A DNA stretch of 64,000 nt from Sulfolobus sp. E5-1-F (GTDB lineage Archaea > Thermoproteota > Thermoprotei_A > Sulfolobales > Sulfolobaceae). The notes under the pieces were generated by a model. It did not search any database. It was given only the letters and a program-made list of their open reading frames with translations, and was not told where the DNA came from. Every line of letters begins with the position of its first letter. Positions within the stretch are counted from its first letter, which is position 1. This document shows, in pieces, positions 3,529-63,089 of the stretch. A program made the position numbers and the translations under genes. The stretch covers positions 904,630 through 968,629 of the forward strand of contig NZ_CP045687.1 in assembly GCF_009601705.1 (NCBI RefSeq). Direction: 5' to 3'.

Positions 3529-3611
3529 CATAAGTTTGATAATCTTCTCAAAGATTGCTAAGGCTATGTTAGCCAACGAAACGACACCATAAGTTTGATA
3601 ATCTTCTCAAA
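3529..3611. repeat. candidate ectopic mini-CRISPR: two identical 24-nt repeats around 35 nt
   Basis: Positions 3529-3552 and 3588-3611 are identical over exactly 24 nt (starting CATAAGTTTG, ending CTTCTCAAA) and are separated by 35 nt. Flanking bases differ on both sides. The repeat matches neither CRISPR repeat of the genome, but repeat length, spacer length and 59-nt period are those of the arrays here. I infer an off-target spacer integration that duplicated its 24-bp target. Confidence 0.6.
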
Positions 3612-3781: not shown

Positions 3782-4369
3782 CTACATAATTGGAGTAATC
3801 AATTTCTTATTAAAATTCTTGTCAAGTATCTCTCTAGCTAACGTTCTTAGGAGATCAATATTAACTTTTATTTTACCTTCCTTCACTAAAGACGAGAAAA
3901 GCTTCGGAATGAAAGGAATAACTATCTTTATATCGAAGTCCAAATCCTTAATCCTTTCAGAAATATTGTATATATCGCTTGGAAATGGGTAAACCATATT
4001 CACTATGAGGATTTTTCTTCCCTCTAGATTCTTGTAGTATTTCACTGTTAGGTCTAACGTAAATGCGTCTGATACGATCAAATTCACTACCTCATCAGCC
4101 TTATCAAACTTACTTTCAAATTGCATAGTGGGGGTATCTACGATTATAAAATCGTAATTTCTCTCTATATTACCGTAATCCAGTGTTGTATCATCCGTAA
4201 CTACATCTACACCCTTTACTGAGTTCTTAATCAACAAACTTGAAAACTTTAAATAGTCCTTATCTACAACAAGGACTCTCTTACCACTTTCTGCCAAGTA
4301 CTTAGCCAAATAGGCGGAAATAATTGACTTCCCAACGCCACCCTTTACACTTACTGTTTTTATTATCAT
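3782..4369 (-). CDS. MinD/ParA-like P-loop ATPase
   Basis: The 195-residue protein begins with a deviant Walker A motif (KGGVGKS, residues 9-15), followed by a helix and VLVVDKD, and has a second strand with DFIIVDTPT near residues 71-79. This is the SIMIBI MinD/ParA fold, which uses ATP-dependent dimerisation to position cargo at membranes or DNA. It is shorter than typical ParA (about 250 residues), so it is a compact or minimal member. It lies downstream of two membrane protein genes on the same strand and probably works with them. Its ATG lies inside a duplicated 24-nt segment (4358-4381), which moved the gene 59 bp away from its original ribosome binding site. Confidence 0.8.
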   Translation of the reverse strand: MIIKTVSVKGGVGKSIISAYLAKYLAESGKRVLVVDKDYLKFSSLLIKNSVKGVDVVTDDTTLDYGNIERNYDFIIVDTPTMQFESKFDKADEVVNLIVSDAFTLDLTVKYYKNLEGRKILIVNMVYPFPSDIYNISERIKDLDFDIKIVIPFIPKLFSSLVKEGKIKVNIDLLRTLAREILDKNFNKKLITPIM

Positions 4370-4440
4370 TCAACTTCCCCCAGATAGAGGAGTAACAACG
4401 AAAATAAACTAAAACATTTTATTATCATTTAATTTCACCC
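4358..4440. repeat. candidate ectopic mini-CRISPR whose spacer is a host CRISPR repeat
   Basis: 4358-4381 and 4417-4440 match at 21 of 24 positions and flank 35 nt. That insert contains, at 4392-4415, a full 24-nt copy of the array 3/4 repeat (GTAACAACGAAAAT then AAACTAAAAC) with one mismatch, about 45 kb from array 3. The target is the gap between the membrane-protein stop codon and the ATPase start codon, so both RBS and ATG were duplicated. Read on the minus strand, the outer ATG opens a 20-codon frame whose TGA overlaps the ATPase ATG. The inner RBS has drifted from GGGTGA to GGGGGA. Confidence 0.7.
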
Positions 4441-5300
4441 TAATTATACAACTTATTATTATTATCATCACCACCATACTGCTTATTATTAAATAGCACA
4501 GCCCTCTCCAAAATTTTCGACAACGCAATTCTTATTCCTTCCTCAAGATCGTAGTATTTTATCTCCCCTTCACTGTTTTGATAAAGCACCTTCTTACTGT
4601 TCTTACTAAACACAATAACCTCATTAGATTCGAAAAATATTGATAACCTTCTATTCCTTTCATCTTCCTCCAGCAAAGATAGATCCATAACCTTCAAATG
4701 AGTATCGTTAACTACAGCGTAGTCTAAACCCAAAGAGGTAAGTAAAGTTAAGAGTCCTCTAATTATACCTCCCTTTTCAAGCTCACTTCTTAGCTTGTCA
4801 ATTAAAGTCATCCTCCCAACGGATAACCACCTAGCCCTAGTTGCTGAGTTCACCACTGACAATCCTAATGCACCTACAAGAAGGTAAAGTGATAGGCCAA
4901 AGTACGTTGTTGAGGGAAAGAATATGTAGAATGCACCATTAGGAGTAGGTAGTACAGAGTAACCGTAATAGTGCAAATACCTCTGTTGGAAAATGAAAGT
5001 ATTTACGATCATCACAACACCAAAACCCGCAGCAATCGTAGAAGCGTAAAGGGAATACCTACTTGACCTCCACGCTAACGGTAAAACAGCTGATATTATG
5101 AAGAAAATTACGGCGAGAATAGTTAATGGAGATATTAGAAGATATTTTGATTCGAAGAAAAGAATTTGAAAACCTAAGGGAGTAATCATCTGTTCATAAT
5201 TAATGCTTTTTAATCCAAAAACGGGTACAAAGAACCAAAGTACAACAGCAATGATCGTCAAAATGGAGAATATAACAACCTCACTGCGGAACCTTGCCAT
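4440..5300 (-). CDS. four-helix membrane protein with cytosolic C-terminal domain
   Basis: I do not recognise this 286-residue protein. Four hydrophobic segments are visible (about 8-30, 52-77, 84-107 and 131-150), followed by a soluble C-terminal half of mixed alpha/beta character rich in charged residues and ending in an Asn-rich tail. It sits between an anchored exported protein upstream (5339-6112) and the MinD/ParA-like ATPase downstream, all on the minus strand with short gaps, which suggests one operon and one machine at the membrane. The start ATG at 5300 is the first in frame. Function is unknown. Confidence 0.65.
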   Translation of the reverse strand: MARFRSEVVIFSILTIIAVVLWFFVPVFGLKSINYEQMITPLGFQILFFESKYLLISPLTILAVIFFIISAVLPLAWRSSRYSLYASTIAAGFGVVMIVNTFIFQQRYLHYYGYSVLPTPNGAFYIFFPSTTYFGLSLYLLVGALGLSVVNSATRARWLSVGRMTLIDKLRSELEKGGIIRGLLTLLTSLGLDYAVVNDTHLKVMDLSLLEEDERNRRLSIFFESNEVIVFSKNSKKVLYQNSEGEIKYYDLEEGIRIALSKILERAVLFNNKQYGGDDNNNKLYN

Positions 5301-10309: not shown

Positions 10310-10515
10310 ATCACTCTTCTTATAGTATGTTTTAGGGAAAAGGAATATATAACTCTCTCTAGCAATTTTTCTACTAGTTTTTACGCGTCACTCTGGAATT
10401 AAGTTGATTATCATCATAATTATCATAGTCATTATTTCACAATAAATATTATCTAGAAGAATGAACCATTAATTAAAACGTTTACATCTATTAACATCTA
10501 ATAAAAGAATAGTAT

Positions 10516-10685
10516 TATTAGTTCTCTGAAAATGACGTATAGCATATACCTTTAATTTTTCCGATGTAAGATTTAAGGCTTATTTATACCATCAACGCTT
10601 AAACTATTTGCCATTATTTAGATCTTTTCGAAGAGAATCCATGTCAGTATTTAAGGTCTAAGGTAAATTTACGTAAACTACTATA
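10516..10685 (+). mobile_element. dispersed ~170-bp element, copy 1
   Basis: First of seven copies of a non-coding element. Recognisable landmarks in order are CTGAAAATGACGTATAGC, TTTAATTTTTCC, ATTTAAGG, AGAGAATC and the 3' end AAGGTAAATTTACGTAAA followed by CTACTA. The sequence AATAGTAT flanks it on both sides (10508-10515 and 10686-10693), a candidate target duplication. Confidence 0.65.
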
Positions 10686-10767
10686 AATAGTATCTTCACT
10701 ATTTCATAGTATCATTTCCGGTTTTAGTTTCTTTTCGTTCGTAAACTACTATAGTATCTTCACTATT
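10672..10767. repeat. candidate ectopic mini-CRISPR carrying part of a CRISPR repeat
   Basis: 10672-10703 and 10740-10767 share CGTAAACTACTATA and GTATCTTCACTATT; the first copy has four extra bases (AATA) between them. The 36-nt insert (10704-10739) ends with 19 nt identical to the array 3/4 repeat (GTTTTAGTTTC then TTTTCGTT, 10721-10739), preceded by 17 nt of spacer-like sequence. The duplicated target includes the 3' terminus of dispersed element copy 1, so the event is younger than that insertion. Confidence 0.65.
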
Positions 10768-10876
10768 GTAAATCCAAAAACATGTAATCCTCTAGAACTT
10801 TATAACATTATGCTGAGTAAGTGTAATGTTAAAAGAAAAATAATATATAATACCTTTGTATAAATGAGTATTAAGA

Positions 10877-13800
10877 ATGACAGATGATTTGTTAACTTAT
10901 GAATTTGAGGAACCCGAAGTCCCTTTGAACAATCCTAGCAATACCACTTTTAACGAATTAATTGGGGTTAATTTTAAGTGTGAACCCTTTACATTCAAAG
11001 CTTATGAACATCAAATTAGAGCTTTTAATGAGTTAAAGAAGGGGAATAACGTAATATTGAAAGCCCAAGCTGGATCGGGTAAGACGGAAGCGTGGTTCTC
11101 ATATGTGATATATAAAATTCTTAAGGAAGGGCAAAAGGACTTCAAGACTCTCCTTATATATCCCACAAGAGCTTTGAGCAATGATCAGTTCAGCAGATTA
11201 ACAAAATATGCAGGTGAGGCATGCCTTAAAATGCCCAATCTAGTGGAAATGTATGATAGCAACAAAACACCGAAACATCTTCATTATCCATTTAACATCT
11301 TAATTACAAACCCTGAGAAAATAGCTAGAAATCTACACAATAAAGAAAGACTCTTACCATACAAAGATGTTAATCTAATAGTCATTGACGAATTCGATTT
11401 TTATGGAACAAATGACGCAAACAAACTTCTTGTCCTACTAAAGGTTCTCTATAAAGATATTTTTAGAACTCAATTTCCCCAATTCGTCATTATGAGTGCT
11501 ACCTTAAACCTCTCTGACATTAAGGAGACTATATTAGAGAAATTAAGCGATGGTAAAGAAATTATAACAATTGAAGGTAATGCAAGAAAGCCCAAAAACA
11601 AAGTTAAGATAGTTTTAGGCAAGAATCAAGGTTTAAGTACCTCAGAGATCTTTCACGCTCTAAAGAAATATTTTTTCAGTAACGAGATAAGTGATCAAAT
11701 AACTCAAGTGATAAAAACACTCGATACGAATATAAGAATATTCAAAAAAGGAGATGATAACAACTTACTATCAAACTTTTTAAATCAATATATCAACTCC
11801 GGTAATACAACCATCGTATTTGCACCCACAATAAAATGGGCAGACTACCTATATTCTAAAATTTCAACTCAAAAAGACAAAGTAGTCATTCATCACTCAT
11901 TAGTACCAAACCGAGAAGAAATTGAAGCTAAACTAAGAGAGGGTGAAGTTAACCTAGCCATATCAGTTATAACCCTTCGTCAAGGGATCAATATAAAAAG
12001 CGTTACAAGGATCATACACTACGGTATGCCTACAAGCATATCTGAGTACCTTCAGAGAGAAGGGAGAAAAGGAAGAGATCCAAATATAACTACAACTGAA
12101 ACTGTAATCATACCGTTAACCCTCTCTGACCTCATTATATTTGCCAGTGATAATCCCGAGGAATTATTCAAGAAATGGAAAAATTTAGGGCCGGAAACTA
12201 CAGTTTTATTGAAAGAAAACAACAAGTTCACCAGGCTAGTTGAAGACATTTATAAAAACGTAATCAATAAGGAAAACGAAAAAATTCAAGATTTAGCCAG
12301 ACGAATGAGAATTTTAACAAGTAAAAATAAGAAAACGATCCAGGCTACCTTTTACGGATGGCACTCAGACAACGTTAAAGTAATATTAGACGATCAAGTC
12401 GTCAAACTAATAGACAAAGCTAGTTTTGTAAATTATTATCAAGTAGGGTCAATAGATATAGCAACTGAATCTGTTATAGTGAAAACGGACTGGAATAAAA
12501 TTTATGAAAAGAGTATAGTTGAGTTACTTAAACAGAGTTATCAAAGTCCTCAAACCGTATCTGGGATAGAACGGGAAATCATCAAGCTAATTAATAAATA
12601 CAAAAAGTATAAGAACAAATATTATTATTATAGTAATAATAGCATTCAAGATTTAAATAGCTTAAAGAATGCGTTACTAGATGACATATACTCCTATAGA
12701 CTCGTCTCCTACGTTGAATTAGGTATTAGGCTAATAGAAGAATTAACAAAAGGCCTTTATATAGTGAGAATCTTTCCAGTTAGAACCATTTGGTATCTAA
12801 ATGATATCAATAAAACTCTAGGTTCAATATATTGTAAAAAACCTATTGTTAGCGTGTACGACGTAACTTACGCATACAACTTCCCCTTACTTTACTTATA
12901 CACCATGAAGTCGGGAAAGTATGTCGAGATTAATGATAAATTAAGGAATGAGATAAAAGAAAACCTTAAGCAAATAATATCATTAATAAATTTAATTCTC
13001 AGAAGAAATTACAACATTTACTTTCCCTTAATAAGATTCTATATAGACAAAGACACCGAAAACGTCATCTTCTGGGAATGGGAGCTCACTGGAGCACTAG
13101 AGACAATATTTGATAATGCGTCATTAAACTTTAGCAACAATAAAACACTTAACCTAGAAAGTATAGAAAAAGACGTAAGTAACATACATTTTGACGATAT
13201 AACCACGATACTGCTTAGAATGAACGGGATTTACGTAAATGATGTAAGATTTAAAGAGATAAAGGATTACGCAGTATCCTTCTTACAACTTATAAAAGCC
13301 TACAAACAAATAACCACTCTGTTAAAGGACTTCTCAAATAAGGACGTTTTCTTAGTCCCATTGCGCTATAATAATCTCGATCTAGTTTTCGTTTTCTCAC
13401 TTAACATTTACCCAGGTTTCTATTCTCTTAATAAATTATTAACTACTAACCATATCACTGCGGATAGTAACGTATATTGCATTGGTAGAAAAGAAGACTT
13501 AGATCAAATCGAAGGAACCTTACGAAATAACGGTATAAAGAAGGTCACTCGCATCGACATTAATGAAGACGATAAAATGGTCAGCTTCTTAGAAGAGAAA
13601 TTAAGGGAATTTGATCAAGAAAATAGTGAAGTTATTGGAGAATTACAACAAAGTAACAAAGATAGCTTAATATTTATTCAATACTTTGACTCATCTATAA
13701 TCAAGGAAGTTATTGAAAGGATCAAAGACCATAAAATTATAAATAATGAAAATCTTATTAATAATGTAATGAGCACATTAAACACTACCCAACAACCAGT

Positions 13801-15196
13801 TCAACAGAATAGAGATAGTGAGCCAATATGTTTACTGATCACAGAGGACTGGTCTAATCTACTTAGAACAGAGTTAAAGAAAGAAAACTCAAAGTATTTC
13901 ATTGAGTTGAACTCTAACATGCAATTATCCAATAACGAGAAATACAAAAACATAACCAATTCACCACCAATATCCACGGAATTCTTATCATACATCAAAA
14001 AACCTAATACACGAATAGACGTTGTGTTTTTAGAGAAAAAGGACAACGAACTACTCCTCCGTTCAGTCGGAAAAATTATCGACGCTAAAAACATCGAATT
14101 AGTAGAAGGGAACAAAATTAAATCAATCAAGATAAACGTCGACTGCTATCAACCTGTCCCACTAAGAATGGACCTAGATATAGGCTATGAAGGGGTCTTT
14201 ATTTGTGAAAGAACCCACGATGATGAAACTAAGAACGCTTCTAACATGATAAATATCAAGAAAATATTGAGTGAATGTAGAAAAGATTCAATATATGAAT
14301 TAAAAGTATGTTACCCTAAAATCCTAGCTTCTAAAATCCTCTCAGATAACCCATTAACACTAGATCAAGACGCATTTATAGATATCAAAAGCAACATTAT
14401 AATCGTTCCTTCTCGGCAAATAGTATTAATTCCATATAACAATACGTACGTTTTATGGAGCATTCCCTATAACTGCAGACAAGGAGATATCAGAGAAATA
14501 GATAAAATAGATAGCAGAAAAATAATTGAATGCATGGGATTACAATTTTTACAAGAAGATAATTATTTGGCTAAACAACTAAGTACCAAAGAAGGTGTTG
14601 AAAAGGCCTTATTGGGAAAAACTTATTCTAAGGTATCAGTTTCGAGAAAACCTAGCAATATAGTAGACTCATTAAAGAAGACCCTCTATTGGCAACACTA
14701 CATTCTGGAATTTATAGGAGTTAAAAAACTAGTTATATTATTGAACTCTCTAATGAAATATCATACTGTACTTAAAATGATTCAAATTAACAACCTTTAT
14801 GATGTGCTATCATTTATAGACATAGTTAAGCAAATCAACGAGCTGAATTCATACCAATCATTACAGGAAGTAATTAATTCACTCCGTCAACATTATCAAA
14901 TAGACTTATGGAATTCTAACTCTGACAAAATCTTAAATCAAATAAATGAAGCTATAGAGAAAATTAATTCAGAGAAAATCACCAATGACTTAAATAAATA
15001 TTTAGATAGTTATTCTCAAGAAATCTCTTTCTTACTTGATGATGATATTTTAGTTGAGACCCGTGGTATCATGATATCATATAGAGAGATATTATTACCG
15101 CAAAATTCAGAGCTAAAAATAAAGTACTTATCACTGTTACTTGTAGAGAAGTATAAGTTTAATGATTTTCCGGTCCTTGTTAAATTCCAAAGGTAA
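10877..15196 (+). CDS. very large SF2 DEAD-like helicase of unknown role
   Basis: The 1439-residue protein has a superfamily 2 helicase core in its first 400 residues: Walker A AQAGSGKT (63-70), motif Ia YPTRALSNDQ, motif II IDEFDF (DEFD in place of DEAD), motif III SAT, and motifs V-VI RQGINI and QREGRKGRDP. The remaining thousand residues match nothing I know and contain no visible zinc cluster or nuclease motif. A TATA element near 10846 gives nearly leaderless spacing to the ATG. It stands alone, bounded by copies 1 and 2 of the dispersed element. Its size and its place in a defence island suggest an anti-viral or DNA-repair helicase; that is inference. Confidence 0.75.
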   Translation: MTDDLLTYEFEEPEVPLNNPSNTTFNELIGVNFKCEPFTFKAYEHQIRAFNELKKGNNVILKAQAGSGKTEAWFSYVIYKILKEGQKDFKTLLIYPTRALSNDQFSRLTKYAGEACLKMPNLVEMYDSNKTPKHLHYPFNILITNPEKIARNLHNKERLLPYKDVNLIVIDEFDFYGTNDANKLLVLLKVLYKDIFRTQFPQFVIMSATLNLSDIKETILEKLSDGKEIITIEGNARKPKNKVKIVLGKNQGLSTSEIFHALKKYFFSNEISDQITQVIKTLDTNIRIFKKGDDNNLLSNFLNQYINSGNTTIVFAPTIKWADYLYSKISTQKDKVVIHHSLVPNREEIEAKLREGEVNLAISVITLRQGINIKSVTRIIHYGMPTSISEYLQREGRKGRDPNITTTETVIIPLTLSDLIIFASDNPEELFKKWKNLGPETTVLLKENNKFTRLVEDIYKNVINKENEKIQDLARRMRILTSKNKKTIQATFYGWHSDNVKVILDDQVVKLIDKASFVNYYQVGSIDIATESVIVKTDWNKIYEKSIVELLKQSYQSPQTVSGIEREIIKLINKYKKYKNKYYYYSNNSIQDLNSLKNALLDDIYSYRLVSYVELGIRLIEELTKGLYIVRIFPVRTIWYLNDINKTLGSIYCKKPIVSVYDVTYAYNFPLLYLYTMKSGKYVEINDKLRNEIKENLKQIISLINLILRRNYNIYFPLIRFYIDKDTENVIFWEWELTGALETIFDNASLNFSNNKTLNLESIEKDVSNIHFDDITTILLRMNGIYVNDVRFKEIKDYAVSFLQLIKAYKQITTLLKDFSNKDVFLVPLRYNNLDLVFVFSLNIYPGFYSLNKLLTTNHITADSNVYCIGRKEDLDQIEGTLRNNGIKKVTRIDINEDDKMVSFLEEKLREFDQENSEVIGELQQSNKDSLIFIQYFDSSIIKEVIERIKDHKIINNENLINNVMSTLNTTQQPVQQNRDSEPICLLITEDWSNLLRTELKKENSKYFIELNSNMQLSNNEKYKNITNSPPISTEFLSYIKKPNTRIDVVFLEKKDNELLLRSVGKIIDAKNIELVEGNKIKSIKINVDCYQPVPLRMDLDIGYEGVFICERTHDDETKNASNMINIKKILSECRKDSIYELKVCYPKILASKILSDNPLTLDQDAFIDIKSNIIIVPSRQIVLIPYNNTYVLWSIPYNCRQGDIREIDKIDSRKIIECMGLQFLQEDNYLAKQLSTKEGVEKALLGKTYSKVSVSRKPSNIVDSLKKTLYWQHYILEFIGVKKLVILLNSLMKYHTVLKMIQINNLYDVLSFIDIVKQINELNSYQSLQEVINSLRQHYQIDLWNSNSDKILNQINEAIEKINSEKITNDLNKYLDSYSQEISFLLDDDILVETRGIMISYREILLPQNSELKIKYLSLLLVEKYKFNDFPVLVKFQR

Positions 15197-15435: not shown

Positions 15436-15522
15436 ATTGCAATACCACTTCATGTAAAAGTGTTGATTAGTCAGTCGGGATATTAGTGCTCTGCAGCATT
15501 ACAATACCACTTCATGTGAAAG
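15436..15522. repeat. candidate ectopic mini-CRISPR, 25-nt repeats around 37 nt
   Basis: 15436-15460 and 15498-15522 agree at 23 of 25 positions (ATTRCAATACC, then ACTTCATGTRAAAG, where R marks two transitions) and are separated by 37 nt. The period of 62 nt equals that of the CRISPR arrays. Copy 2 of the dispersed element begins 34 nt further on. The sequence 15197-15435 holds no gene. Confidence 0.5.
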
Positions 15523-15555
15523 AGATAAACTTATCACGAAGACTAGGAAATACAA

Positions 15556-15735
15556 TAGTAGTAGTATTTTCTTGAAAATGACGTATAGCATAATACTTTT
15601 AATTTTTACAATGCAAGAAAAGGCTTATTTTTTATACTACATACGGTTAGTGTGTTTACGATCGCTTAAATCTTTTTGAGGAGAATTGATCTTAGTATTA
15701 GTAGATTTGAAGTAAATCTACGTCGTAAAGTACTA
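15556..15735 (+). mobile_element. dispersed ~170-bp element, copy 2
   Basis: Same landmarks and orientation as copy 1: TAGTAGTA start, TTGAAAATGACGTATAGC, TTTTAATTTTTAC, AAATCTACGT and AAAGTACTA end. A target duplication is not clear. Between here and the cas6 stop at 15997 I see no gene. Confidence 0.6.
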
Positions 15736-28580: not shown

Positions 28581-29285
28581 ATGAAGTCATATTTTGTCAC
28601 CATGGGATTTAATGAAACTTTTCTCCTTAGACTTCTAAACGAAACTTCAGCACAAAAAGAAGACAGTTTGGTAATTGTTGTTCCCTCACCAATTGTCTCC
28701 GGGACTAATACTGCAATAGAGAGTTTGAGGGCTCAAATTTCCAAGTTGAATTATCCTCTTCCAAAAGTTTACGAAATAGACATAGTTGACTTCAATTCAG
28801 CTCTCTCTAAGATTTTAGATCTTCTTTTGCCTTTACCAGAGCCAATAATAAGTGATCTAACAATGGGAATGAGAATGATAAACACTTTGATTCTCTTAGG
28901 GATTATTGTGAGTAGGAAGAAGTTCACAGTTTACGTTAGAGATGAGGGTGGGGGAAGTAGGGTTATTTCATTTAATGATGGCATAATGAGGGCTTTGATG
29001 AGGGAATACAGTAAGGAGGAAATGAAGTTACTTAACGTACTCCATGAGATGGAAGGAGCTAGTGTAACTGAACTTGCAAAAATGTTAAATAAGAGCGAGA
29101 AGACTTTGATAAACAAGGTAGCTGAGTTAAAGAAATACGGGATTTTAATTCAGAAAGGTAAGGATAGAAAGGTTGAGCTAAATGAGTTGGGGTTGAACGT
29201 TATTAAACTAAATAGGAGTTTTGTTAGTAGTAGTAGGGGTCTTGGTATCGAAGAGAATGGAAAGGAAGCTGATGTATCTTATTAG
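28581..29285 (+). CDS. csa3: Csa3-family CARF-wHTH regulator (adaptation locus)
   Basis: The protein opens with KSYFVTMGFNETFLLRLLNE, the Csa3 signature, has a CARF-type Rossmann domain (about 1-130, with LTMGMRM) and ends with a winged helix-turn-helix (about 145-210). Csa3a-type proteins activate adaptation genes and leaders in Sulfolobus. A TTG at 28560 would extend it by seven residues, but the ATG at 28581 gives the family N-terminus and suits a TATA box near 28535-28545. It is divergent from the array 1 leader and faces the adaptation operon. Its last codons and stop lie inside the first copy of a 26-nt repeat pair. Confidence 0.87.
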   Translation: MKSYFVTMGFNETFLLRLLNETSAQKEDSLVIVVPSPIVSGTNTAIESLRAQISKLNYPLPKVYEIDIVDFNSALSKILDLLLPLPEPIISDLTMGMRMINTLILLGIIVSRKKFTVYVRDEGGGSRVISFNDGIMRALMREYSKEEMKLLNVLHEMEGASVTELAKMLNKSEKTLINKVAELKKYGILIQKGKDRKVELNELGLNVIKLNRSFVSSSRGLGIEENGKEADVSY

Positions 29286-29360
29286 AATTATATGAATCAG
29301 TAAAGTCTTATACGTTGTTTGCGATGCAAGCTGAGATGTATCTTATTAGAATTATATGAA
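29271..29360. repeat. candidate ectopic mini-CRISPR at the csa3 stop codon
   Basis: 29271-29296 and 29335-29360 are identical over 26 nt (GATGTATCTTATTAG, then AATTATATGAA), flanking 38 nt. The first copy contains the last codons and TAG of csa3. The 64-nt period is that of the arrays. No match to either CRISPR repeat. Confidence 0.6.
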
Positions 29361-29636: not shown

Positions 29637-29822
29637 AGTAGTTTACTGAAAAATTAGAGACAAGTAATAGAGATGTGCATGTGTGTATATAACGTTTAAT
29701 TTTTCCAATGTAAGATAAGGCGTATTCATACTAAACACGCTTCAACTATTTACGGTTACTTAAATTTGAAGAGAACCTATCTCGGTGTTTAAGGGATTTG
29801 AGGTAAATTTACGTAAAGTATA
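29637..29822 (+). mobile_element. dispersed ~170-bp element, copy 3, with 6-bp target duplication
   Basis: This 186-bp copy carries AACGTTTAATTTTTCCAATG, GAAGAGAACCTAT and AGGTAAATTTACGTAAAGTA. It is flanked on both sides by CATTTG (29631-29636 and 29823-29828), a perfect duplication that supports insertion by transposition. Confidence 0.75.
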
Positions 29823-29880
29823 CATTTGATAGAGCTAAATCATGAAAACCTAGTTTCACCCGTCAAATAACCAGATAAAG

Positions 29881-29959
29881 AGATACTTCTCTACTTGTGT
29901 CGTTCGAAGCTAAACCATTGTCGATCCATTGTATACAAAACAGATATTTCTCTGCTTGT
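29881..29959. repeat. degenerate repeat pair next to element copy 3
   Basis: AGATACTTCTCTACTTGT (29881-29898) and AGATATTTCTCTGCTTGT (29942-29959) agree at 16 of 18 positions with a 61-nt period, and three more bases upstream match with one difference. It may be an aged version of the mini-CRISPR pairs. The rest of 29823-30116 shows no gene. Confidence 0.35.
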
Positions 29960-30116
29960 CTTATCCAATAGTGTTAAATAATGGGTTCAGTATTAGCGTA
30001 AGCAATCTTGAAGACGCTAATTATCACCTTCAGCGTTAAATAAATAGATAAAAATTTTCACGTTTTCTGACCTTCTTTAAACTACGTAAAAAGGGCAAAA
30101 ATTCAAAGCATTTAGC

Positions 30117-30631
30117 TCACAACAAAACGCTAACTGGACAAACTCTCCTATACTGACAAGCTTTACATAGTAGGGGTGAGGGATTGACGACAGGAGGACT
30201 ATCATCTTCTATACTGTCGATTAACTGATTAACTACTTTATGTATGTATTCGACGTGCTCTCTTCTAACCTCAATGTTTATCTTCTTCTCCTTGTTCATT
30301 AGTAATATGGAACTCCTCACCCTAAACCCATTTCTCTCAGCTAAGTAAGCGTAAGCTAGCAACTGTATTCTAAAGTGGTTGTAGAATCTTCTGTGAAATG
30401 CCTTAATCTCTATTACACTATCCTCAGTCAAAACGTCAACTATCCCGTTTAATCCACTATCCTTATCCTTTAAATGTACTTCATAATATTTAGGTTCTGG
30501 GAAATCACTCACAATTTCCTTTAAATTCACTTTCTTAGCTATCCTCTGACTATTCGTTATTGGCTCTCTCCAACCCATCTTCTTCCTTATCCATGGTATG
30601 ACCTTACACAGAGTGAAGTCCTTTAAGTCAG

Positions 30632-30644
<13 letters not shown>
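30117..30644 (-). CDS. cas4: Cas4 RecB-like nuclease
   Basis: Cas4 trims prespacers and checks the PAM during spacer uptake. The 175-residue protein has the RecB-type active site (GIVDVL, then IEIKA, then the QLLAYAYL helix) and four iron-sulphur cysteines: one near residue 13 and three at the C-terminus in LCKACQYRRVCPV. It is the last gene of the adaptation operon and overlaps cas2 by 13 bases. Length is normal for the family. Confidence 0.9.
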
Positions 30645-30898
<254 letters not shown>

Positions 30899-31822
30899 TC
30901 ACATCACCAACCTAAATCCCTTATATTCCCTTCCTTCCCTAATGCTTGACGCTAACTTCACAGCGTGAGCCCTAATCGCTTGAATTAACGTCTTAGGATT
31001 ATGATCACTTTCCTCCTTAACGTTCTCCTCCATACCTTTCCTTATTAACTTAGCCAAATTTCCCCTACTACTCTCCTCAATTAAACCTTCCTTAACCTTT
31101 AACCTAAAACCACTTCTTAAAGCTCTAACCAATAGGAAATCAATATATGGTTTAAACATTTCTGAGAAATCATATACTAAACTCTCCTTCCCTGGTCTAT
31201 CCTTGTGTATAAAACCTAAATAGGGATCCAACCCAGCTATAACTAGGTATTTGAAGACGATGCTGTAAAGTATAGCGTAAGAGTAGTTCAAAGCAATATT
31301 GAACTGATCAACCCCATCTACATCCCTACCGTCAAATCCAATATCCTTAGGTAGTAGGTGAGATATATTCTGCCAATATATTCTAGCAGCAGTTGGCTCA
31401 TCCTTCCCTAACAACTCCTTATAATCGTTCTTACTTCCAGTAATTCTAGCCCAGTACTTTAAGTGAACACTCTGATTGAAAATCTTAGAACTTATCATCT
31501 CCTCCCCGTATTTAATGTCCTTCTTCACCACAACACACTCGTACTGTGCCTTCTTAGTCTTAACAGTTTCAGTTACAATAGAAGGTAATAGTATTCCCCA
31601 AGGCGTATCCCTTGAGTTCAAGAACATTACACTTATACCGTGAGTTAAGGCTAGAGATAAGGCAGTAGTTGAAATCGAACAAGATGCTGTTATCAATATT
31701 TCATCAACCTCAGAGGGCGAAATTTCGACCTTCTTATCCCCTTTCTTAATCACTAACATGTTCCTCTTAACGTAAACGTAAGCTCCGTATTCAGATATGA
31801 CTAACGTTCTCATTATTTTCAC
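30899..31822 (-). CDS. cas1: Cas1 spacer integrase (adaptation operon)
   Basis: Cas1 inserts new spacers at the leader end of arrays. The 307-residue protein shows the catalytic set E142 (GKDEPTAARIYW), H206 (GFIHKDRPG) and D218/E221 ([10 protein letters not shown]). It overlaps csa1 by 4 bases and cas2 follows immediately. The neighbouring arrays with identical leaders are its likely substrates. Its staggered integration makes 24-bp duplications, the size seen at several lone repeat pairs outside arrays. Confidence 0.95.
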   Translation of the reverse strand: MKIMRTLVISEYGAYVYVKRNMLVIKKGDKKVEISPSEVDEILITASCSISTTALSLALTHGISVMFLNSRDTPWGILLPSIVTETVKTKKAQYECVVVKKDIKYGEEMISSKIFNQSVHLKYWARITGSKNDYKELLGKDEPTAARIYWQNISHLLPKDIGFDGRDVDGVDQFNIALNYSYAILYSIVFKYLVIAGLDPYLGFIHKDRPGKESLVYDFSEMFKPYIDFLLVRALRSGFRLKVKEGLIEESSRGNLAKLIRKGMEENVKEESDHNPKTLIQAIRAHAVKLASSIREGREYKGFRLVM

Positions 31823-32697
31823 CTCTTATTATTACAATAGTTTAGGAAAGGACAAGAGGGAGAGCACGAGACCGGCATACCAGGATCCTTCTCTTGACTT
31901 ACCATGTCAATGACCTCATCCCTAGCGTCTAAGAACTCCTTCCTAATATCTGGGGAAATGTAAAATACTTCAACCTTAAATTCCGGGGAGTTAATGGTGA
32001 CTCCGTTAACGTAGATTAGAGCACCGAAGTCAATTGGAAGCTCTAGAGCGCTCTCCAAAGCCATACCGTATCCAGCTAGAGCCAATCTATGAAACTCTTG
32101 AGAACTCCCAACCTTCATTTCCACAACCAAGGAGAGTTGCATTATTGCGTCAACTGACAACCTAGAGGATAAACCCAAGGGACTACCATCTACTTTGAAT
32201 TCGCTGATCACCGGTACAAATGATGTGGAATCTGAGAAGTCACTCAAAAGATCCAAAGCATAAGCTTTGTAAACCTCTTCACAGTACTTAATGAACTGTT
32301 GGGGACATACGTTCCTAACAATCTTGTTGCTCCTAAACAGAGTTTCTAGGACGTTCCATGGTTTATAACCAGAAGAAAGGAGTTTAATGACCTCGTTTGA
32401 TACGTTCCTAACTATCTCGTGAATTGCTTGGCCTAATAGTAGCGAAGCTCTTTGTTCCCCTTGCACTTTTAAGACCTTCCTTAAGTACACATCCCTCTTA
32501 GTCTCACAGTATCTATAAGCAACATCAGACATAGAGAGGCCCAAATAACGTCTAGGCTTAATTGGGGGCATGTGATAGTTCCACCCTCTAAGCTCCTCCT
32601 CAATAGGGTCCGAGGCCCTATATGAGTGGAGCCTTCGTAACTGTCTAATTATCTGGGACCTCATAATATAATGGCAGTTGTCGAATTTAAAATCCAT
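31819..32697 (-). CDS. csa1: Csa1, Cas4-superfamily adaptation protein
   Basis: The 292-residue protein is the Csa1 member of the Cas4/RecB group that accompanies I-A adaptation genes. It shows the AHEIVRNVSNE-like helix preceded by LGQAI, the VVEMKV nuclease strand, and the C-terminal cysteines CSPSCPFLNYC of an iron-sulphur cluster. With Cas4 it probably helps define spacer ends and PAM. It is the first gene of the operon; a dyad at 32808-32825 lies in its promoter region and the array 2 leader starts just beyond. Confidence 0.88.
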   Translation of the reverse strand: MDFKFDNCHYIMRSQIIRQLRRLHSYRASDPIEEELRGWNYHMPPIKPRRYLGLSMSDVAYRYCETKRDVYLRKVLKVQGEQRASLLLGQAIHEIVRNVSNEVIKLLSSGYKPWNVLETLFRSNKIVRNVCPQQFIKYCEEVYKAYALDLLSDFSDSTSFVPVISEFKVDGSPLGLSSRLSVDAIMQLSLVVEMKVGSSQEFHRLALAGYGMALESALELPIDFGALIYVNGVTINSPEFKVEVFYISPDIRKEFLDARDEVIDMVSQEKDPGMPVSCSPSCPFLNYCNNKR

Positions 32698-37707: not shown

Positions 37708-37888
37708 CTAAAACATCTTATGCTCAACATTTAACCGAACAAAACCATTATGACCTAATGGCTTGTCATTCAAGTAAACCACCTTATCCATAAAGTATTT
37801 TTGAAATCCTCTCAATAGTATTCGTGAGAACTATTTCCACCTTCGTTTCCAGCCCCAGTTTTAGGATATCCTCCTTGATAGTATTCAT
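37708..37888 (-). pseudogene. frameshifted gene remnant
   Basis: On the minus strand a 34-codon frame (starting MNTIKEDILKLGLETK, ending SKILYG) stops at 37784-37786, while an overlapping frame continues with KYFMDKVVYLNDKPLGHNGF to a stop at 37708. Joined by one shift they give a single plausible short protein. I do not recognise it. Copy 4 of the dispersed element abuts its start. 37513-37707 shows no gene. Confidence 0.4.
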
Positions 37889-37889
37889 G

Positions 37890-38058
37890 TAATACTTTAC
37901 GTAAATTTACCTTAAATCTCTTGAACACTAACCTAGATTCTCTATGAAAAGATTTAGATAGTCTAAAATAATTGAAGTGTACATAGTATAAATATACCTT
38001 TTCTTGAATTGGAAAAATTAAACGTTATACACTATACCTAATTTTCAGGGAACTACTA
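37890..38058 (-). mobile_element. dispersed ~170-bp element, copy 4
   Basis: Reverse-oriented 169-bp copy: TAATACTTTACGTAAATTTA at the left, AAATTAAACGTTATACACTA in the middle, and TTTTCAGGGAACTACTA at the right. No clear target duplication. Confidence 0.65.
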
Positions 38059-44502: not shown

Positions 44503-46494
44503 ATGAGTGAAGTACAGCTTAAAGTACCCGCAGTTTATCTACCTCTAGGAAATCTGAAGATAAACGGTATTCAATTAAGGAAATTTCAAGAAGACCTATT
44601 TTACGAACTTGACAATTCCAGAAAAATCTTATTAGAAGCCCCAACAGGCTCTGGAAAAACCTTCTCTATCATAGTCCTCCTATCGAAACTAGTATTCCAA
44701 GGCTCAAAATTACCCATTATTGGAATATACCCCTCTAGAGTACTAGTTTACGATCAAAAGAAGTCAATAATTAATACGCTTAAGGACATGGGATTCAAGG
44801 AGGAAAAGGAGGACTATTATTTCACAGGGCAGTCAAGAATAAGCAACCTACAAAATTGTGGAAAATACATGGTAAAAGGAGAGGATAACACGTGCGAAAA
44901 GAACATTAGCTTAGTTTTAGTGGATTTGACAAGTGAAACTAATAAGAAAGCTTATGACATTTTACAAAATTTGAAAGCTAGTGACTACTTGATAATGTTA
45001 ACAGTACCAGAGTACCCATATATGTATATTTCTCATATAGGTAAAGTGGAGGATTTCAGCAGAGTAATAGAAGCAGTAGCGAAGGGAAAAGTGAATAATT
45101 TACAAATAAGGAAAAGTAACATAGAACATATATTCAATGAGTTTACTAAATACTTTAACGGATATTTCTTTATAGATGAGTATCACTTATATACTGGGCT
45201 TGCTAGAGCTTCACTTTACACTTTGATAAGAATGATAGACGATTTCAACTCCTCGCAACCAATACACAAGTTCGTTTTCTCATCAGCCACACCGTTAAGT
45301 GGTATTCATGTGGATAAGGTAATAAGAGCCCAAACGTTCCCTAATGGGTCTAAAATAAGAAAGGACACGACGTTAATTTTCCACTTAACAAACAAAACTA
45401 ACGCACAAGAGGCACTAGTAGATTACGTAACGTCATTACAAACAAATGGCAGAAGAAGTAATAGTAACAACAATAGAAAAGTTGGAATAATAGTTGATAG
45501 AGTGTATTATATAAGTAAAATTTGTGAGAAGATACAAGCTGCTGTTGTTTGGGGACTAGATAGAGATTATGGTCTTTGTAGAAAAAGCTCAGACATTAAA
45601 AATGAAAAAGTAATAGTTGGAAATAGCGCAATATCGTTTGGCATTGATATTCCAGATCTAGACGAAGGGTACATTCATTCCCACGATGCGGAAACCGCCA
45701 TACAGAGAATAGGAAGGTTTGGAAGACATGGTGAAGGTAGTGCTGAAATTCACATTTTCACTACCGCTAAATATAGCGTCGTCAACTTCTTAAACTCAGT
45801 AAAGGATAAACCCCTCTCCCTTTTCGAATATGTCGATGTCATCAGAAAAGTCTTCAAAAGTAGAGAAGACGATAAGTTAGATCAGATTCCACTATCCAAG
45901 GAGAGGTCTGAAATAATATATAAGACATATGAGTATCTAAAGCTAATTTCACAGTCCTCAGAAATGTTACAAATAAAAGGTTATACCCCACCCCAAGTAT
46001 CTGGATTAATAAAACTAAGGCCATCAGCCGAGGATTACTTCAAAGTATTTGCATATAGACCAGGGAGAATAGTTGGAAAATGGTGTAATGGAAATGAGGA
46101 TGACCTCTTCACTCTAATAAGAAACTTCGAATACGATAAGAACAACGGATGTTTTAAGGAAACCCCATCCAGACAGAACCCAGAGGTTTACTTGGAGAAC
46201 ATTCCCCAGAATAAATTCTACTCATTTCTCGAATTCGACCAAATATCTAAGCCATTAATAAACATTAACGGATTAACATTAAGGTTGAACGTAATAAAAG
46301 GACTAGAGGATTCGTACGTTTTAATAATAACGGAAGACGATATGAAAGGATTATGGGACGACTTTTACGAAATGGCTAGATTAGTAGCAAGTTACGCCTC
46401 AGCATTTGTATCCTGCTATAAGAAAAATAGGAGAATTAATAACAGACAAGAATACGAATGTGATAGTGTTGATGCATTGTTACTGTTCATATAA
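44503..46494 (+). CDS. cas3d: Cas3d helicase of type I-D
   Basis: The 663-residue SF2 helicase has Walker A EAPTGSGKT (about 46-54), motif II DEYH in FIDEYHLYTG (about 225-228, in place of DEAH), SSAT, and motif VI QRIGRFGRHG. No HD domain is present, as expected for I-D, where the nuclease is on Cas10d. The C-terminal part matches nothing I can name. It ends the I-D operon; a repeat pair and copy 5 of the dispersed element follow. Confidence 0.9.
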   Translation: MSEVQLKVPAVYLPLGNLKINGIQLRKFQEDLFYELDNSRKILLEAPTGSGKTFSIIVLLSKLVFQGSKLPIIGIYPSRVLVYDQKKSIINTLKDMGFKEEKEDYYFTGQSRISNLQNCGKYMVKGEDNTCEKNISLVLVDLTSETNKKAYDILQNLKASDYLIMLTVPEYPYMYISHIGKVEDFSRVIEAVAKGKVNNLQIRKSNIEHIFNEFTKYFNGYFFIDEYHLYTGLARASLYTLIRMIDDFNSSQPIHKFVFSSATPLSGIHVDKVIRAQTFPNGSKIRKDTTLIFHLTNKTNAQEALVDYVTSLQTNGRRSNSNNNRKVGIIVDRVYYISKICEKIQAAVVWGLDRDYGLCRKSSDIKNEKVIVGNSAISFGIDIPDLDEGYIHSHDAETAIQRIGRFGRHGEGSAEIHIFTTAKYSVVNFLNSVKDKPLSLFEYVDVIRKVFKSREDDKLDQIPLSKERSEIIYKTYEYLKLISQSSEMLQIKGYTPPQVSGLIKLRPSAEDYFKVFAYRPGRIVGKWCNGNEDDLFTLIRNFEYDKNNGCFKETPSRQNPEVYLENIPQNKFYSFLEFDQISKPLININGLTLRLNVIKGLEDSYVLIITEDDMKGLWDDFYEMARLVASYASAFVSCYKKNRRINNRQEYECDSVDALLLFI

Positions 46495-46523
46495 TTAACT
46501 GAAGTAGCATTCCATTTATTTAT

Positions 46524-46607
46524 ATATTACTAAAAAGGAGTAGCTAGCCGTGAATATTTACACAGTATGTTTGCCGAAACAAATATTACTAAAAGGGGAG
46601 TAGCTAG
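46524..46607. repeat. candidate ectopic mini-CRISPR downstream of cas3d
   Basis: 46524-46547 (24 nt, ATATTACTAAAAAGG then AGTAGCTAG) recurs at 46583-46607 with one inserted base and one change, flanking 35 nt. The period is 59 nt. Dispersed element copy 5 begins three bases later. Confidence 0.5.
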
Positions 46608-46609
46608 AA

Positions 46610-46768
46610 TAATACTTTCCGTAAATTCACCTCAAATCCCCTAAACCTTAAACACTAAGGTATATTCTCTGCAAAAAGATTTAAGAGTTGCAAAGTTTAA
46701 TCGCGTATATGCTATATACAATAGCTTTGGAAAAATCAAACGTCATAGTCGTTCTCAAGAAACTACTA
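46610..46768 (-). mobile_element. dispersed ~170-bp element, copy 5 (diverged)
   Basis: Reverse-oriented and more diverged (about 159 bp): TAATACTTTCCGTAAATTCA at the left, CTTAAACACTAAGGTA, CTGCAAAAAGATTTAAG, GAAAAATCAAACGTCATAG and CAAGAAACTACTA at the right. No target duplication is visible. Confidence 0.55.
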
Positions 46769-46801
46769 ACGACAAGTCCACTATACATAATATTACGCCA
46801 A

Positions 46802-47704
46802 TCACTTAGGCTTATAGACATATGGCGAAAAAGCCTTGAATTCAACTATACTCTTCTTAAGCTCATTAGCCTTAGCGTAAATAACGCTCCTCAACTTCCT
46901 CTTACTCATCATTTCATAAAAATTCCTAGTGATAGCAATTAAGGACTTCGACTCCAGATAACCCTTCCTATCAATGTCAATTGAAAACTTATTCACTGAC
47001 GAAATGACAACGTGAATACCAAAAGGCTTAAACATTTCAGAAAAATCATAAGTTAGAGAAACCCTCCCAGGATAATTCTTATGCATAAAACCATAATACG
47101 GATCAAGACCAGCCGACATCAACGCGTGAGTACAAATTCCATAAATTAAAGAATAGATATAATCAATACTCCTATTAATAGGATCATCATTCCTAGGCTT
47201 TCTACCCGGAAATTCCTTGGGGAGAAACTTCCTCAACTCCTCCCACATCGCCTTACTCAACTCCGCCTCAGCTAGCCTTAACGAATCAATATCCTTCACC
47301 TCACCAATCTTCCTCACATCAACATTTGAAATATAAACCTTATGAATATACGAAAAGTACTTCGCTACATTATACATACCCTTAATTTTACCCTCTATAA
47401 AAGACCTCGCAATAAACAAACCTTGAGAATCGGAAATATTATATTGAGCCTTCCTAATCTCAGAAATTGACGTCAGAAAAGGAGGTACCAACACAACATC
47501 ATATCTCTTCCCGTGAATTAGAACAGGAGCGTTAATTGAGGACAAGAAAAGCAGAGTTCCACTATCAATAACCACCTCACTACCTATAATAACAAGCATA
47601 TCCACATCTAACGTGCTAAACTCCTTAACACCCTTCGAAGTCTCGACAATTAAATCCGAACCCTTCCTCGTTACCTTAGCCTTCTTTATAATTAGTATCA
47701 TCAA
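46802..47704 (-). CDS. cas1: second Cas1, stand-alone, next to the I-D operon
   Basis: The 300-residue integrase has the full catalytic set: E148 ([10 protein letters not shown]), H208 (GFMHKNYPG) and D220/E223 ([11 protein letters not shown]). It is a distinct paralogue of the Cas1 at 30899-31822. It is convergent with cas3d and upstream of it lies array 3, whose leader starts about 1.2 kb away. No cas2 or cas4 accompanies it, which is unusual for a working adaptation module, so it probably borrows Cas2 and Cas4 or acts on its own. The gap to array 3 is full of CRISPR-like short repeats. Confidence 0.92.
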
Positions 47705-47794
47705 TATAAGAGAAGATAATTTGAATATATAAGTATATTATATATAGAGAGAGAGCTACAATAATATCTCCCTCTTCACCTCAATTACAATAGT

Positions 47795-47948
47795 AGTTAA
47801 TAACACCTATAGTCATGTCTAAGACGCTTCTTTAACTCATCAAAATCATCAAGACAGTTAATCACACCTATACTGATGAGTTTGTAAAACATACATGCCA
47901 ACAACTTCCTCTTGTGTTGTGAACTCTATACTGATGAGTTTGTAAAAC
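47795..47948. repeat. nested pair of candidate ectopic mini-CRISPRs upstream of cas1
   Basis: 47868-47890 and 47926-47948 are identical over 23 nt (CTATACTGATGAG then TTTGTAAAAC), 35 nt apart. The first copy overlaps another, older pair: 47795-47818 and 47856-47879 agree at 21 of 24 positions (AGTTAATNACACCTA core), 37 nt apart. Two successive integrations at neighbouring sites would explain this. Confidence 0.55.
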
Positions 47949-48524: not shown

Positions 48525-48565
48525 TTCGTTAATTTTATCATTATATTTTAATAACTAATATTATT

Positions 48566-48742
48566 TAGTACTTTACGCAAATTTACCTTAAATCACTTAA
48601 ATCTTAAATAATAATGTAGATTCTCTTTAACGAGATTTAAGTAACTATGAATAGTTAAGGCGTACATAGTATAAATATGCCTTAATCTTACATAGGGAAG
48701 ATTAAACATTATATACTACACCTAATTTTCAGAAAACTACTA
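48566..48742 (-). mobile_element. dispersed ~170-bp element, copy 6
   Basis: Well-preserved 177-bp copy in reverse orientation: TAGTACTTTACGCAAATTTA at the left, AGATTAAACATTATATACTA and CCTAATTTTCAGAAAACTACTA ends at the right (written here in two parts of one motif). Flanks ATTATT and ATCATT agree at five of six bases, a possible aged target duplication. Confidence 0.7.
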
Positions 48743-48937
48743 ATCATTATAGGGAAGAAAGAGAGAGGCAAAAGATGAAAAGAGTTAGTATCATTAATAT
48801 ATAAGTGATTCCGCATTATGCTAGTATTATAATCTCACAGCTTACTGACGTATTATTAATAATATGATACTCGATATAAGCAATTTGAACGCCTTTGAAA
48901 TATTTATATAATAATTCTCTCTATATTAATAAAATAT

Positions 48938-49231: not shown

Positions 49232-50787
49232 GTAACAACGAAAAGAAACTAAAACCGTAGGTGCATGATTCTTCTGGGTCTAAGTAGCCAGTAACAACGA
49301 AAAGAAACTAAAACAAAGTATTTGCCAAAACGCGGAGCAAGTAACGAAGTAACAACGAAAAGAAACTAAAACTCCTTTGACCGGCTGGAATAGGTGGGTC
49401 TGCCATGTAACAACGAAAAGAAACTAAAACTTGTAACCTTTGGACAGAACAGCACTTAGCCTATGTAACAACGAAAAGAAACTAAAACGATGTTCATTGT
49501 CACTCACTGAAGCTTTAAAATAAAGTAACAACGAAAAGAAACTAAAACAGCTATCGCTAATTTCTTACAAAAGTATGCTGATAGTAACAACGAAAAGAAA
49601 CTAAAACTCTTTGTTATTGGCGACTTAAATAGCGGAAACAAAGTAACAACGAAAAGAAACTAAAACTTGAGCCGGCTGAGCAAAAATAATAGCGTCTTTG
49701 TAACAACGAAAAGAAACTAAAACGAACTGAGTTCACTACTCTGTGTGCTACGTTCCACGTAACAACGAAAAGAAACTAAAACTATTGCGCGCACCTTTTT
49801 GCGGTGTCGGCTCCTGTAACAACGAAAAGAAACTAAAACAAATTAAAATATGATTTCCAAATATAAATATATTCGTAACAACGAAAAGAAACTAAAACTC
49901 TAAGAAGCTTACTATATCTTTTAGCCCAATAGCGTAACAACGAAAAGAAACTAAAACGTTAGCTAGTACAATAGATGCAGTTCCTATCGTGAGTAACAAC
50001 GAAAAGAAACTAAAACTGGGGGAATGTTGGGGATCAAGGTATATTGTACGTAACAACGAAAAGAAACTAAAACCTACCAGCAATACACGAGGCACACCAT
50101 TCTCCATGTAACAACGAAAAGAAACTAAAACACACTCTTGCCAGCGTACATACTCTCCTCTATCAGTAACAACGAAAAGAAACTAAAACGTACGCCAAAT
50201 AAATGTAACCATTTTGTATGCCTTCTGTAACAACGAAAAGAAACTAAAACTATATTCCTGCATTTTCTATCCGATATTGGACAGGTAACAACGAAAAGAA
50301 ACTAAAACTTACAAAGTTTTACGATGCTTACGTACAGCAGTGTGGGAGTAACAACGAAAAGAAACTAAAACACCTCTACCTCATCATATCTACGGCCAAC
50401 TTTAACATGTAACAACGAAAAGAAACTAAAACTAATTGCACTTTCTTTAGATTTGAGTAACATTATAAGGTAACAACGAAAAGAAACTAAAACTATGAAC
50501 TAGAGATTATTCAAGGTGCAGGATAAATGTAACAACGAAAAGAAACTAAAACTTCACCCAAGTATATAATGAGAATATAAAATATAAGTAACAACGAAAA
50601 GAAACTAAAACCTGGTGGTGGTGGATGAGCACACTTTACACGTGTAACAACGAAAAGAAACTAAAACCCAGGGCTACATAACTACACTAAGGGGGCTTAA
50701 CTGTAACAACGAAAAGAAACTAAAACGCTTTTATCGTTCAAAAACGTGTAAAGAGTGCTCATCGTAACAACGAAAAGAAACTAAAAC
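49232..50787 (+). CRISPR. CRISPR array 3, leader-proximal part, 27 repeats
   Basis: The 24-nt repeat is GTAACAACGAAAAG followed by AAACTAAAAC, transcribed on the plus strand from the leader at its left. Spacers are about 35-39 nt. I count 27 repeats before the IS, which sits inside the spacer that starts at 50788. The repeat class differs from arrays 1 and 2 and is shared with array 4. Confidence 0.97.
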
Positions 50788-50803
50788 TTCCACTGAGATT
50801 TAT

Positions 50804-51976
50804 GGGAGTGTTCTCATGCAGTCATCTTATTCGAGAACTGTTAGTAAATTTATATCAGATCATCTCTAATATACTGTACTGCCCTCAAGTAAGTCTCGTT
50901 TAAGGGCGTTATCTCCCTAGAGAATACGTGAGGATACATAACGTTCAACAAGGCCAAGCTATATTCCACCATCCTCTGACTCCTATTAACAGCCCTAGTA
51001 TCCCTAGCTAACCTAGCAAGATGAGACCTACACCAAGAATTATGGCTCTCCACAATGTAAGTGTACTTCTTACTAGCTACGCGTTTATCAAGAACTTGAT
51101 AAACACAGTAGTGATCAGTATAGTTTATCCCACTCCTAGGTAACCAGCTCAAGAGGAGACGGAAAGTCCCATAACTTCTGTCCCCAGACTCGTAAAAAGG
51201 TACCCCATCAGAAAGAGCAGTCCAAATCCAGAGATCCGCTCTAACCTTCCCATGCCTAACACGAAGATAAGTCCAGAACTCGTCAAACACTGTAGACTTA
51301 GCAGTGAAACCCTTGAGTTGACCCCTCAATATTACCAAGCTCGTGAAGGCCTTTGTTCCAATCCTCTTCATTAGGCTGTAGATAGTAGTTAATGGTTTTC
51401 CCTCAACTCTTGATATCGCCCTCATGCTCATCCTGTTCAAGTACTCCTTTAAGATTCTCTCCCTTTGTTTTCTATCCATTCTGTGCTTCAACGTGTTGTA
51501 AAACGTTCTTCCACACGCTTTACACTTGTATTTTTCTTTCCCTCTGGATGAGCCGTTCTTGACTACTCTGTTGGAGTTGCATGATGGGCATGTTGGTCTC
51601 TTCTCCCTTCTCCTTCTTATTCCCACTTTCTTCACGTAGTAGTATAGTGTTGATGGTGGGATTCCTATTTTCGTGATCTGAACTCCCAAGGAGTATGCTG
51701 CTAACGCTAGTGCAAGATCCTTTAGCTCGTACTTTCTTGGCTTAAGATTTAAATTTCTTAAAATCAAAAGTATTAGTTGTGCGAGGATTACGGGATCCAT
51801 CTGTAATAGCCTCACAGAGAATCTCGTAATCCTCGCACATAAACCTTATTCTAGAGACCGTCCTTAGCGTTCTAATTCCTTAACCTATAGGTTAAGATGA
51901 GTAATTATAAAAATTTCTAGTCTGATATAATTTTACTAATACTTTTCGAATAAGATGACTGCATGAGAACACTCCC
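50804..51976. mobile_element. ISC1173-type IS1-family element inside a spacer
   Basis: The element is exactly 1173 bp, the length that names ISC1173. Its ends are inverted repeats identical over about 31 bp (GGGAGTGTTCTCATGCAGTC and onward), with similarity continuing for another 20-25 bp. The 8-bp direct repeat AGATTTAT flanks it (50796-50803 and 51977-51984). Removing the IS and one repeat copy restores a 38-nt spacer, so the insertion split spacer 27 of array 3. It contains one transposase gene and a palindrome at 51879-51896. Confidence 0.93.
50850..51815 (-). CDS. IS1-family transposase
   Basis: The 321-residue protein is the single-frame (InsA-InsB fused) transposase of an archaeal IS1-family element. 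The N-terminal half has a zinc finger (CPSCNSNRVVKNG and YKCKACGRTF, about residues 78-107) and a helix-turn-helix, and the C-terminal half has the DDE-type core with VFDEFWTYLR and later YIVESHNSWCRSHLARLARD. It lies wholly within the 1173-bp element and appears intact, so the IS may still be active. Confidence 0.92.
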   Translation of the reverse strand: MRLLQMDPVILAQLILLILRNLNLKPRKYELKDLALALAAYSLGVQITKIGIPPSTLYYYVKKVGIRRRREKRPTCPSCNSNRVVKNGSSRGKEKYKCKACGRTFYNTLKHRMDRKQRERILKEYLNRMSMRAISRVEGKPLTTIYSLMKRIGTKAFTSLVILRGQLKGFTAKSTVFDEFWTYLRVRHGKVRADLWIWTALSDGVPFYESGDRSYGTFRLLLSWLPRSGINYTDHYCVYQVLDKRVASKKYTYIVESHNSWCRSHLARLARDTRAVNRSQRMVEYSLALLNVMYPHVFSREITPLNETYLRAVQYIRDDLI

Positions 51977-52006
51977 AGATTTATTGCTAGAGTTTCAGCT
52001 TGTTCT

Positions 52007-62642: not shown

Positions 62643-62885
62643 TATTTCACAGTCTCATCTTTTAGATTACGAAAGGAAAAGCTTTTTCCTAAATTCCATA
62701 AAAATAGATAAAAGTGACGTTCGTGAAATAACTCTGACGTGAACTGAATTTTTGTAGGTCTCGTTATAAAGCATAAAATTGTCTCAATATCTTCTAGCCC
62801 TTAAAGATTTAAAACCTCCTCTTTTCTCTATTACCATTATCATCTCAATTATCCAGGGGAATCATATAATAACTGATACCTTGTA

Positions 62886-63054: not shown

Positions 63055-63089
63055 CTTGTAGATCATCACCCTTAACCACTTGTTGTTAT

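Follow-up and report, generated by a model that had tools for sequence, protein, structure and literature searches.

A spacer-sized insert carrying a CRISPR repeat at the start of an ATPase gene in Sulfolobus sp. E5-1-F: a probable case of off-target Cas1-Cas2 integration

Introduction

How does a whole CRISPR repeat come to lie in the translation-initiation region of a gene outside any array? The question is raised by a block at the start of a MinD/ParA-type ATPase gene in Sulfolobus sp. E5-1-F, located in a 64,000-nt stretch of the genome (the window; coordinates refer to it unless another stretch is named). To our knowledge, most evidence for off-target integration by Cas1-Cas2 comes from in vitro experiments and from overexpression. 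Nivala et al. (2018) are said to have reported cases in Sulfolobus islandicus.

Non-canonical chromosomal integration is credited to Nivala, Shipman and Church (2018) in two later papers (PMC9456107; PMC11788318). Integration by S. solfataricus Cas1-Cas2 is non-specific in vitro and lacks leader specificity (PMC5815122), and Csa3a of S. islandicus has been proposed to restrain Cas1 until leader-type sites are reached (PMC9456107). The block at 4358-4440 is very probably an ectopic spacer integration of this kind, in which Cas1-Cas2 used the length ruler of arrays 3 and 4 and took CRISPR-type DNA as the prespacer.

Anatomy of the block

The ATPase gene (3782-4369, - strand) encodes a P-loop protein of 195 aa matching Pfam AAA_31, CbiA and ParA. 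Two 24-nt direct repeats are found at its start, at 4358-4381 (TTTTATTATCATTCAACTTCCCCC on the + strand) and 4417-4440 (TTTTATTATCATTTAATTTCACCC), which agree in 21 of 24 positions and stop matching immediately on both sides. The inner copy (4358-4381, gene strand GGGGGAAGTTGAATGATAATAAAA) holds the start codon of the full-length ATPase frame, and the outer copy (4417-4440, gene strand GGGTGAAATTAAATGATAATAAAA) contains GGTGA and an ATG. Between these two target copies lies an insert of 35 nt (4382-4416) composed of AGATAGAGGA, GTAACAACGAAAATAAACTAAAAC and a final A, in which direct reading finds no transposon-like inverted ends. The initial annotation had described a 35-nt insert within a 24-nt duplication of 21/24, and this description is confirmed to the base, with sharp bounds. 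It had also placed a repeat of arrays 3 and 4 within the insert, and 4392-4415 (+ strand) does match that repeat with one mismatch (23/24). Because the target copies are not identical, the integration reading has to accept some divergence between them.

Array 3 (49232-55551, + strand, 87 repeats, interrupted by an insertion of about 1.2 kb) and array 4 (63089-64000, - strand, 61 repeats, running on past the window) share the repeat found in the insert. Their repeats are 24 nt long, the length of the duplication, and their modal spacer length is that of the insert: 49 of 145 spacers (34%) measure 35 nt and 88% fall within 33-37 nt. The type I-A arrays 1 and 2 have no 35-nt spacer among 102, and 4% within 33-37 nt. 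Since 35 nt is the mode in one pair of arrays and absent from the other, the 24/35 anatomy fits the adaptation ruler of arrays 3 and 4. In simulated sequence, no 24-nt direct repeat of the quality seen at 4358 occurs at offsets 57-66.

Genes for Cas1, Cas2 and Cas4 are present within the window. The Cas1 encoded beside array 3 (46802-47704, - strand, NCBIfam TIGR00287) is a candidate integrase, besides the I-A adaptation module Cas4-Cas2-Cas1-Csa1 (30117-32697, - strand). No recognisable cas2 is found next to this cas1 in the adjoining 46481-46830, and arrays 3 and 4 may borrow Cas2 and Cas4 from the I-A module. The insertion that interrupts array 3 (50788-52006) holds a 321-codon frame (50850-51815, - strand) and looks like an insertion sequence.

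The junction in relatives

Upstream of the ATPase gene lies its syntenic partner, a membrane-type gene for a 286-aa protein without Pfam match (4440-5300, - strand). Its stop is 11 nt from the outer ATG and 70 nt from the inner one. The same gene pair is found in three relatives, one of the same genus (G003) and two others (G015 and G019), with stop-to-start distances of +2 nt in G003, about -8 nt in G015 and about 18-24 nt in G019, where the start codon is uncertain. The ATPase of Sulfolobus sp. E5-1-F is full length against the relatives (open frames of 196, 196 and 219 aa). At none of the three junctions is there a trace of the 59-bp block, and in G003 the 60 kb around the locus hold no CRISPR array.

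The initial annotation had proposed a comparison of this intergenic region and counted a block without any empty-site allele in relatives as an argument against integration; the comparison, once run, gave block-free junctions in all three. These relatives are distant (36-49% protein identity, none of the same species), and their junctions may be read as empty-site-like alleles, all of them divergent. A scan of further genome contigs returned one syntenic relative that was already known and a distant Vulcanisaeta homologue only. Because a close homologue of the ATPase is found in only 4 of 31 family genomes, the gene is accessory, and not of the housekeeping type that had been supposed.

The repeat as cargo and its possible donors

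A whole-genome search for the array 3/4 repeat, allowing up to 3 mismatches, yields 88 forward and 61 reverse matches, which are the 87 and 61 array copies plus 4392-4415; the cargo is the only match outside the arrays. Its 23/24 identity compares with a background maximum of 18/24 (3000 random 36-mers against the genome's repeats). Among the 21 inserts compared, above-background similarity to a CRISPR repeat is confined to that at 4358.

These values bear on whether the repeat-like sequence is an unrelated motif in a conserved regulatory block of the operon. The translation-initiation region is a position where sequence could be constrained, as such a block would require. With so close a match to the local repeat and no block in three syntenic relatives, this explanation is barely credible. 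The repeat could also be all that remains of an array formerly at this site, or a product of chance recombination with an array. Its presence at 4392-4415 is as expected from such a relic, and a similar partial repeat (10721-10739) does lie beside sequence homologous to the trailer of array 4. At 4358-4440 itself, however, there is no leader-like or trailer-like sequence (a BLAST search of 4341-4460 against the window returned array repeats only), the repeat sits inside a 35-nt insert bounded by target copies, and the site separates two genes that are adjacent in three relatives, all of which makes an array relic very unlikely.

The partial repeat belongs to a locus of its own. At 10673-10768, a 28-nt duplication with a 4-nt indel surrounds a 36-nt sequence whose last 19 bases are identical to part of the array 3/4 repeat, and the adjoining DNA is homologous to the trailer side of array 4 (62883-63054). 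The locus may represent another ectopic insert with a repeat in it, or else what is left of an array end.

Where the captured DNA came from is less sharply indicated. The flank AGATAGAGGA occurs beside none of the 148 present array repeats (best agreement, 6 of 10 flank bases), and the whole 35-nt insert, searched in the genome with up to 3 mismatches, finds itself only. Searches of the insert against phages and plasmids gave chance-level matches only, no exact repeat match was found in viral contigs, and 15 ectopic inserts searched together against phages gave no match. In E. coli, prespacers are produced with particular frequency at the CRISPR locus (PMC12539621; PMC10011333), so array DNA is a plausible source. 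Viruses and plasmids of Sulfolobales bear stand-alone CRISPR repeats and mini-arrays (PMC6858448); these too are isolated host-like repeats outside arrays and represent a possible type of donor, although they reside on mobile elements whereas the repeat described here sits within a duplicated chromosomal target. As the flank has no array match and mobile elements carry repeats, the donor may have been a lost array unit or a repeat-bearing mobile element. The suggestion that the array itself was the donor is therefore one of the weaker parts of the earlier reading, although the insert is CRISPR-type DNA.

Similar insertions around the CRISPR-cas region

The window was scanned outside the arrays for 24-nt direct repeats of at least 20/24 at offsets 30-130. 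Offsets 57-66 account for seven such repeats and the remaining offsets for three; simulated sequence gives none. Besides 4358-4440, the loci comprise a perfect duplication (3529-3611, 24/24) whose 35-nt insert lies on the downstream side of the ATPase gene, a 38-nt insert at 15436-15521 (22/24), a 40-nt insert at the 3' end of csa3 (29271-29358, 24/24), a 37-nt insert at 29877-29961 (20/24), and two successive inserts of 37 and 34 nt (47794 and 47867) with overlapping duplications upstream of cas1 (47794-47948). The neighbouring stretches L072 and L082 add 7079, 12839-13053 (four-copy), 14142, 14701-14855 (three-copy) and L082:2281. Together these are eleven loci, 4358 included, between genome positions of about 908,000 and 1,000,300, all intergenic or at gene ends. 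The count covers the scanned part of the CRISPR-cas region of about 92 kb and excludes L082:12129/12154 because of its resemblance to a unit duplicated within a real array.

Stretches totalling 420 kb, sampled from elsewhere, contained no ectopic locus. Three places there have such repeats, which are taken as coding repeats because they lie inside open frames at offsets of 60, 63 or 66, multiples of three. In two other genomes, G004 and G018, three candidates apiece lie close to the arrays. The regions around arrays in G001 and G005 contain no convincing ectopic site, so a high insertion density is not general in the genus. Most duplicated targets are no more similar to array repeats than background (8-13 of 24, with a single one at 16), and a repeat-like target choice is not claimed.

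These neighbours also bear on a regulator of the CreTA/CreA kind, in which + strand transcription of the solo repeat and the 24 nt next to it would give a guide RNA that is antisense to the start of the ATPase gene and directed at the second copy. Such a guide implies a + strand RNA with a ACUAAAAC 5' tag from 4408 onward. Ectopic repeats can yield guide-like RNAs, and CreTA resembles the present locus in having an ectopic degenerate repeat in the same chromosomal region as the cas genes (PMC9458426). Genes for type III-B and I-D effectors lie nearby, and of the 24 bases that follow the repeat, 21 match the ATPase start region. However, the direct repeat has exactly the length and offset of an integration duplication, and about ten neighbouring sites share both with no repeat in their cargo. 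CreTA has paired repeats and a toxin RNA; here a single repeat lies 45 kb from array 3 with no recognised leader, transcription of the + strand is conjectural, and integration accounts for the anatomy. A guide-RNA function is therefore highly improbable.

Several further features of the region can be described. Ectopic insertions lie on both sides of the ATPase gene (3529-3611 and 4358-4440) and appear to differ in age. In G004, a perfect 24-nt duplication with a 35-nt insert (L089:13592-13674) lies at the junction of two adjacent frames and resembles the gene-boundary case at 4358-4440. The multi-copy loci L072:12839-13053 and L072:14701-14855 consist of four and three near-identical 24-nt units with 40-42-nt inserts, unlike the neighbouring array repeats, and are candidate neo-CRISPR arrays. 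A conserved element of about 170 bp has six intergenic copies in the CRISPR-cas region (10512-10683, 15549-15630, 29687-29817, 37877-38055, 48556-48744 and 62883-63054) and ends in GGTAAATTTACGTAAAGTAC, with the palindromic core TTTACGTAAA. For three of the ectopic insertions, a copy is no more than about 60 bp away. This element is possibly a binding site for a regulator of the Csa3 type.

The upstream frame and translation

The 20-codon frame that the initial annotation had noted is real: opened by the outer ATG, it runs from 4366 to 4428 (- strand), encodes MIIKCFSLFSLLLLYLGEVE, and ends in a TGA that overlaps the inner ATG as ATGA. Its geometry is a consequence of the 59-nt offset together with the ATGA already present at the gene start. 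When inserts of suitable length were simulated at random, about 17% produced such an upstream frame, so selection for the leader frame is not required as an explanation. Read on the gene strand, the outer copy is GGGTGAAATTAAATG and the inner copy GGGGGAAGTTGAATG, with GGTGA before the ATG in the former and GGGGA in the latter. The inner ribosome-binding site had been called decayed; the difference is there, but the word presupposes that the outer copy is ancestral.

Two papers describe stop-start overlaps as supporting translational coupling in archaea, given an overlap or very short spacing (PMC6728339; PMC10666635). The 20-codon frame could therefore bridge the gap made by the insertion. 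From the sequence, coupling of the ATPase to this frame is plausible. The rewiring of translation that had been claimed is possible; the frame itself stands, but chance would create it in about 17% of random insertions. The repeat is antisense in the ATPase mRNA. Cleavage of the transcript by the crRNA-processing enzyme Cas6, as had been proposed, is not expected, because the repeat lies on the strand opposite to the message.

Discussion

Ectopic spacer-type integration with a captured repeat is strongly supported by the 24/35 geometry, the match to spacer length, the empty-site-like junctions in relatives, and the clustering of similar loci, with none in 420 kb elsewhere. From these we infer the enzyme. 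A Cas1-Cas2 complex would have inserted a 35-nt prespacer at the junction of the membrane-type gene and the ATPase gene, cutting the two target strands 24 nt apart, and gap repair would then have duplicated the 24 bp that hold the ribosome-binding site and start codon. This prespacer would have consisted of an entire array 3/4 repeat and 11 bases of flank, derived either from an array unit since lost or from a mobile element with such a repeat. The ATPase gene would have stayed intact because the duplication copied both signals, and as a by-product the 20-codon frame, ending on the ATPase start codon, may restore stop-start coupling.

The event is of a known kind, and the repeat as cargo is a new twist. 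Like the off-target integrations and neo-CRISPR loci of Nivala et al. (2018), it has a repeat-length duplication around a spacer-length insert outside an array. It differs from them in that the cargo holds a full CRISPR repeat, the target is a gene's ribosome-binding site and start codon, and insertions are concentrated around the CRISPR-cas region. Ectopic acquisition in the S. thermophilus CRISPR3 array is likewise integration away from the leader end, there inside the array (PMC7999890) and here in unrelated gene DNA.

A broader view can be offered only tentatively. The adaptation machinery may repeatedly put fragments of spacer size, some of them from its own arrays, back into the chromosome between genes within roughly 100 kb, acting as a local mutator that seeds neo-arrays and, at nearby genes, new leader frames; the insert at 4382-4416 would then have carried a repeat to the place where translation of a gene begins and created a stop-start coupling that was not there before. 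The locus belongs to a natural genome with about a dozen insertions near CRISPR loci, graded in apparent age by duplications from 20/24 to 24/24. Their clustering opens two testable questions, namely whether off-target integration prefers array-near DNA and how new arrays originate. In the case at 4358-4440, CRISPR-type DNA itself would have served as prespacer, and the gene survives an insertion at its start codon since the start signal was copied along with the target. The adaptation machinery thus appears able to reshape nearby genes.
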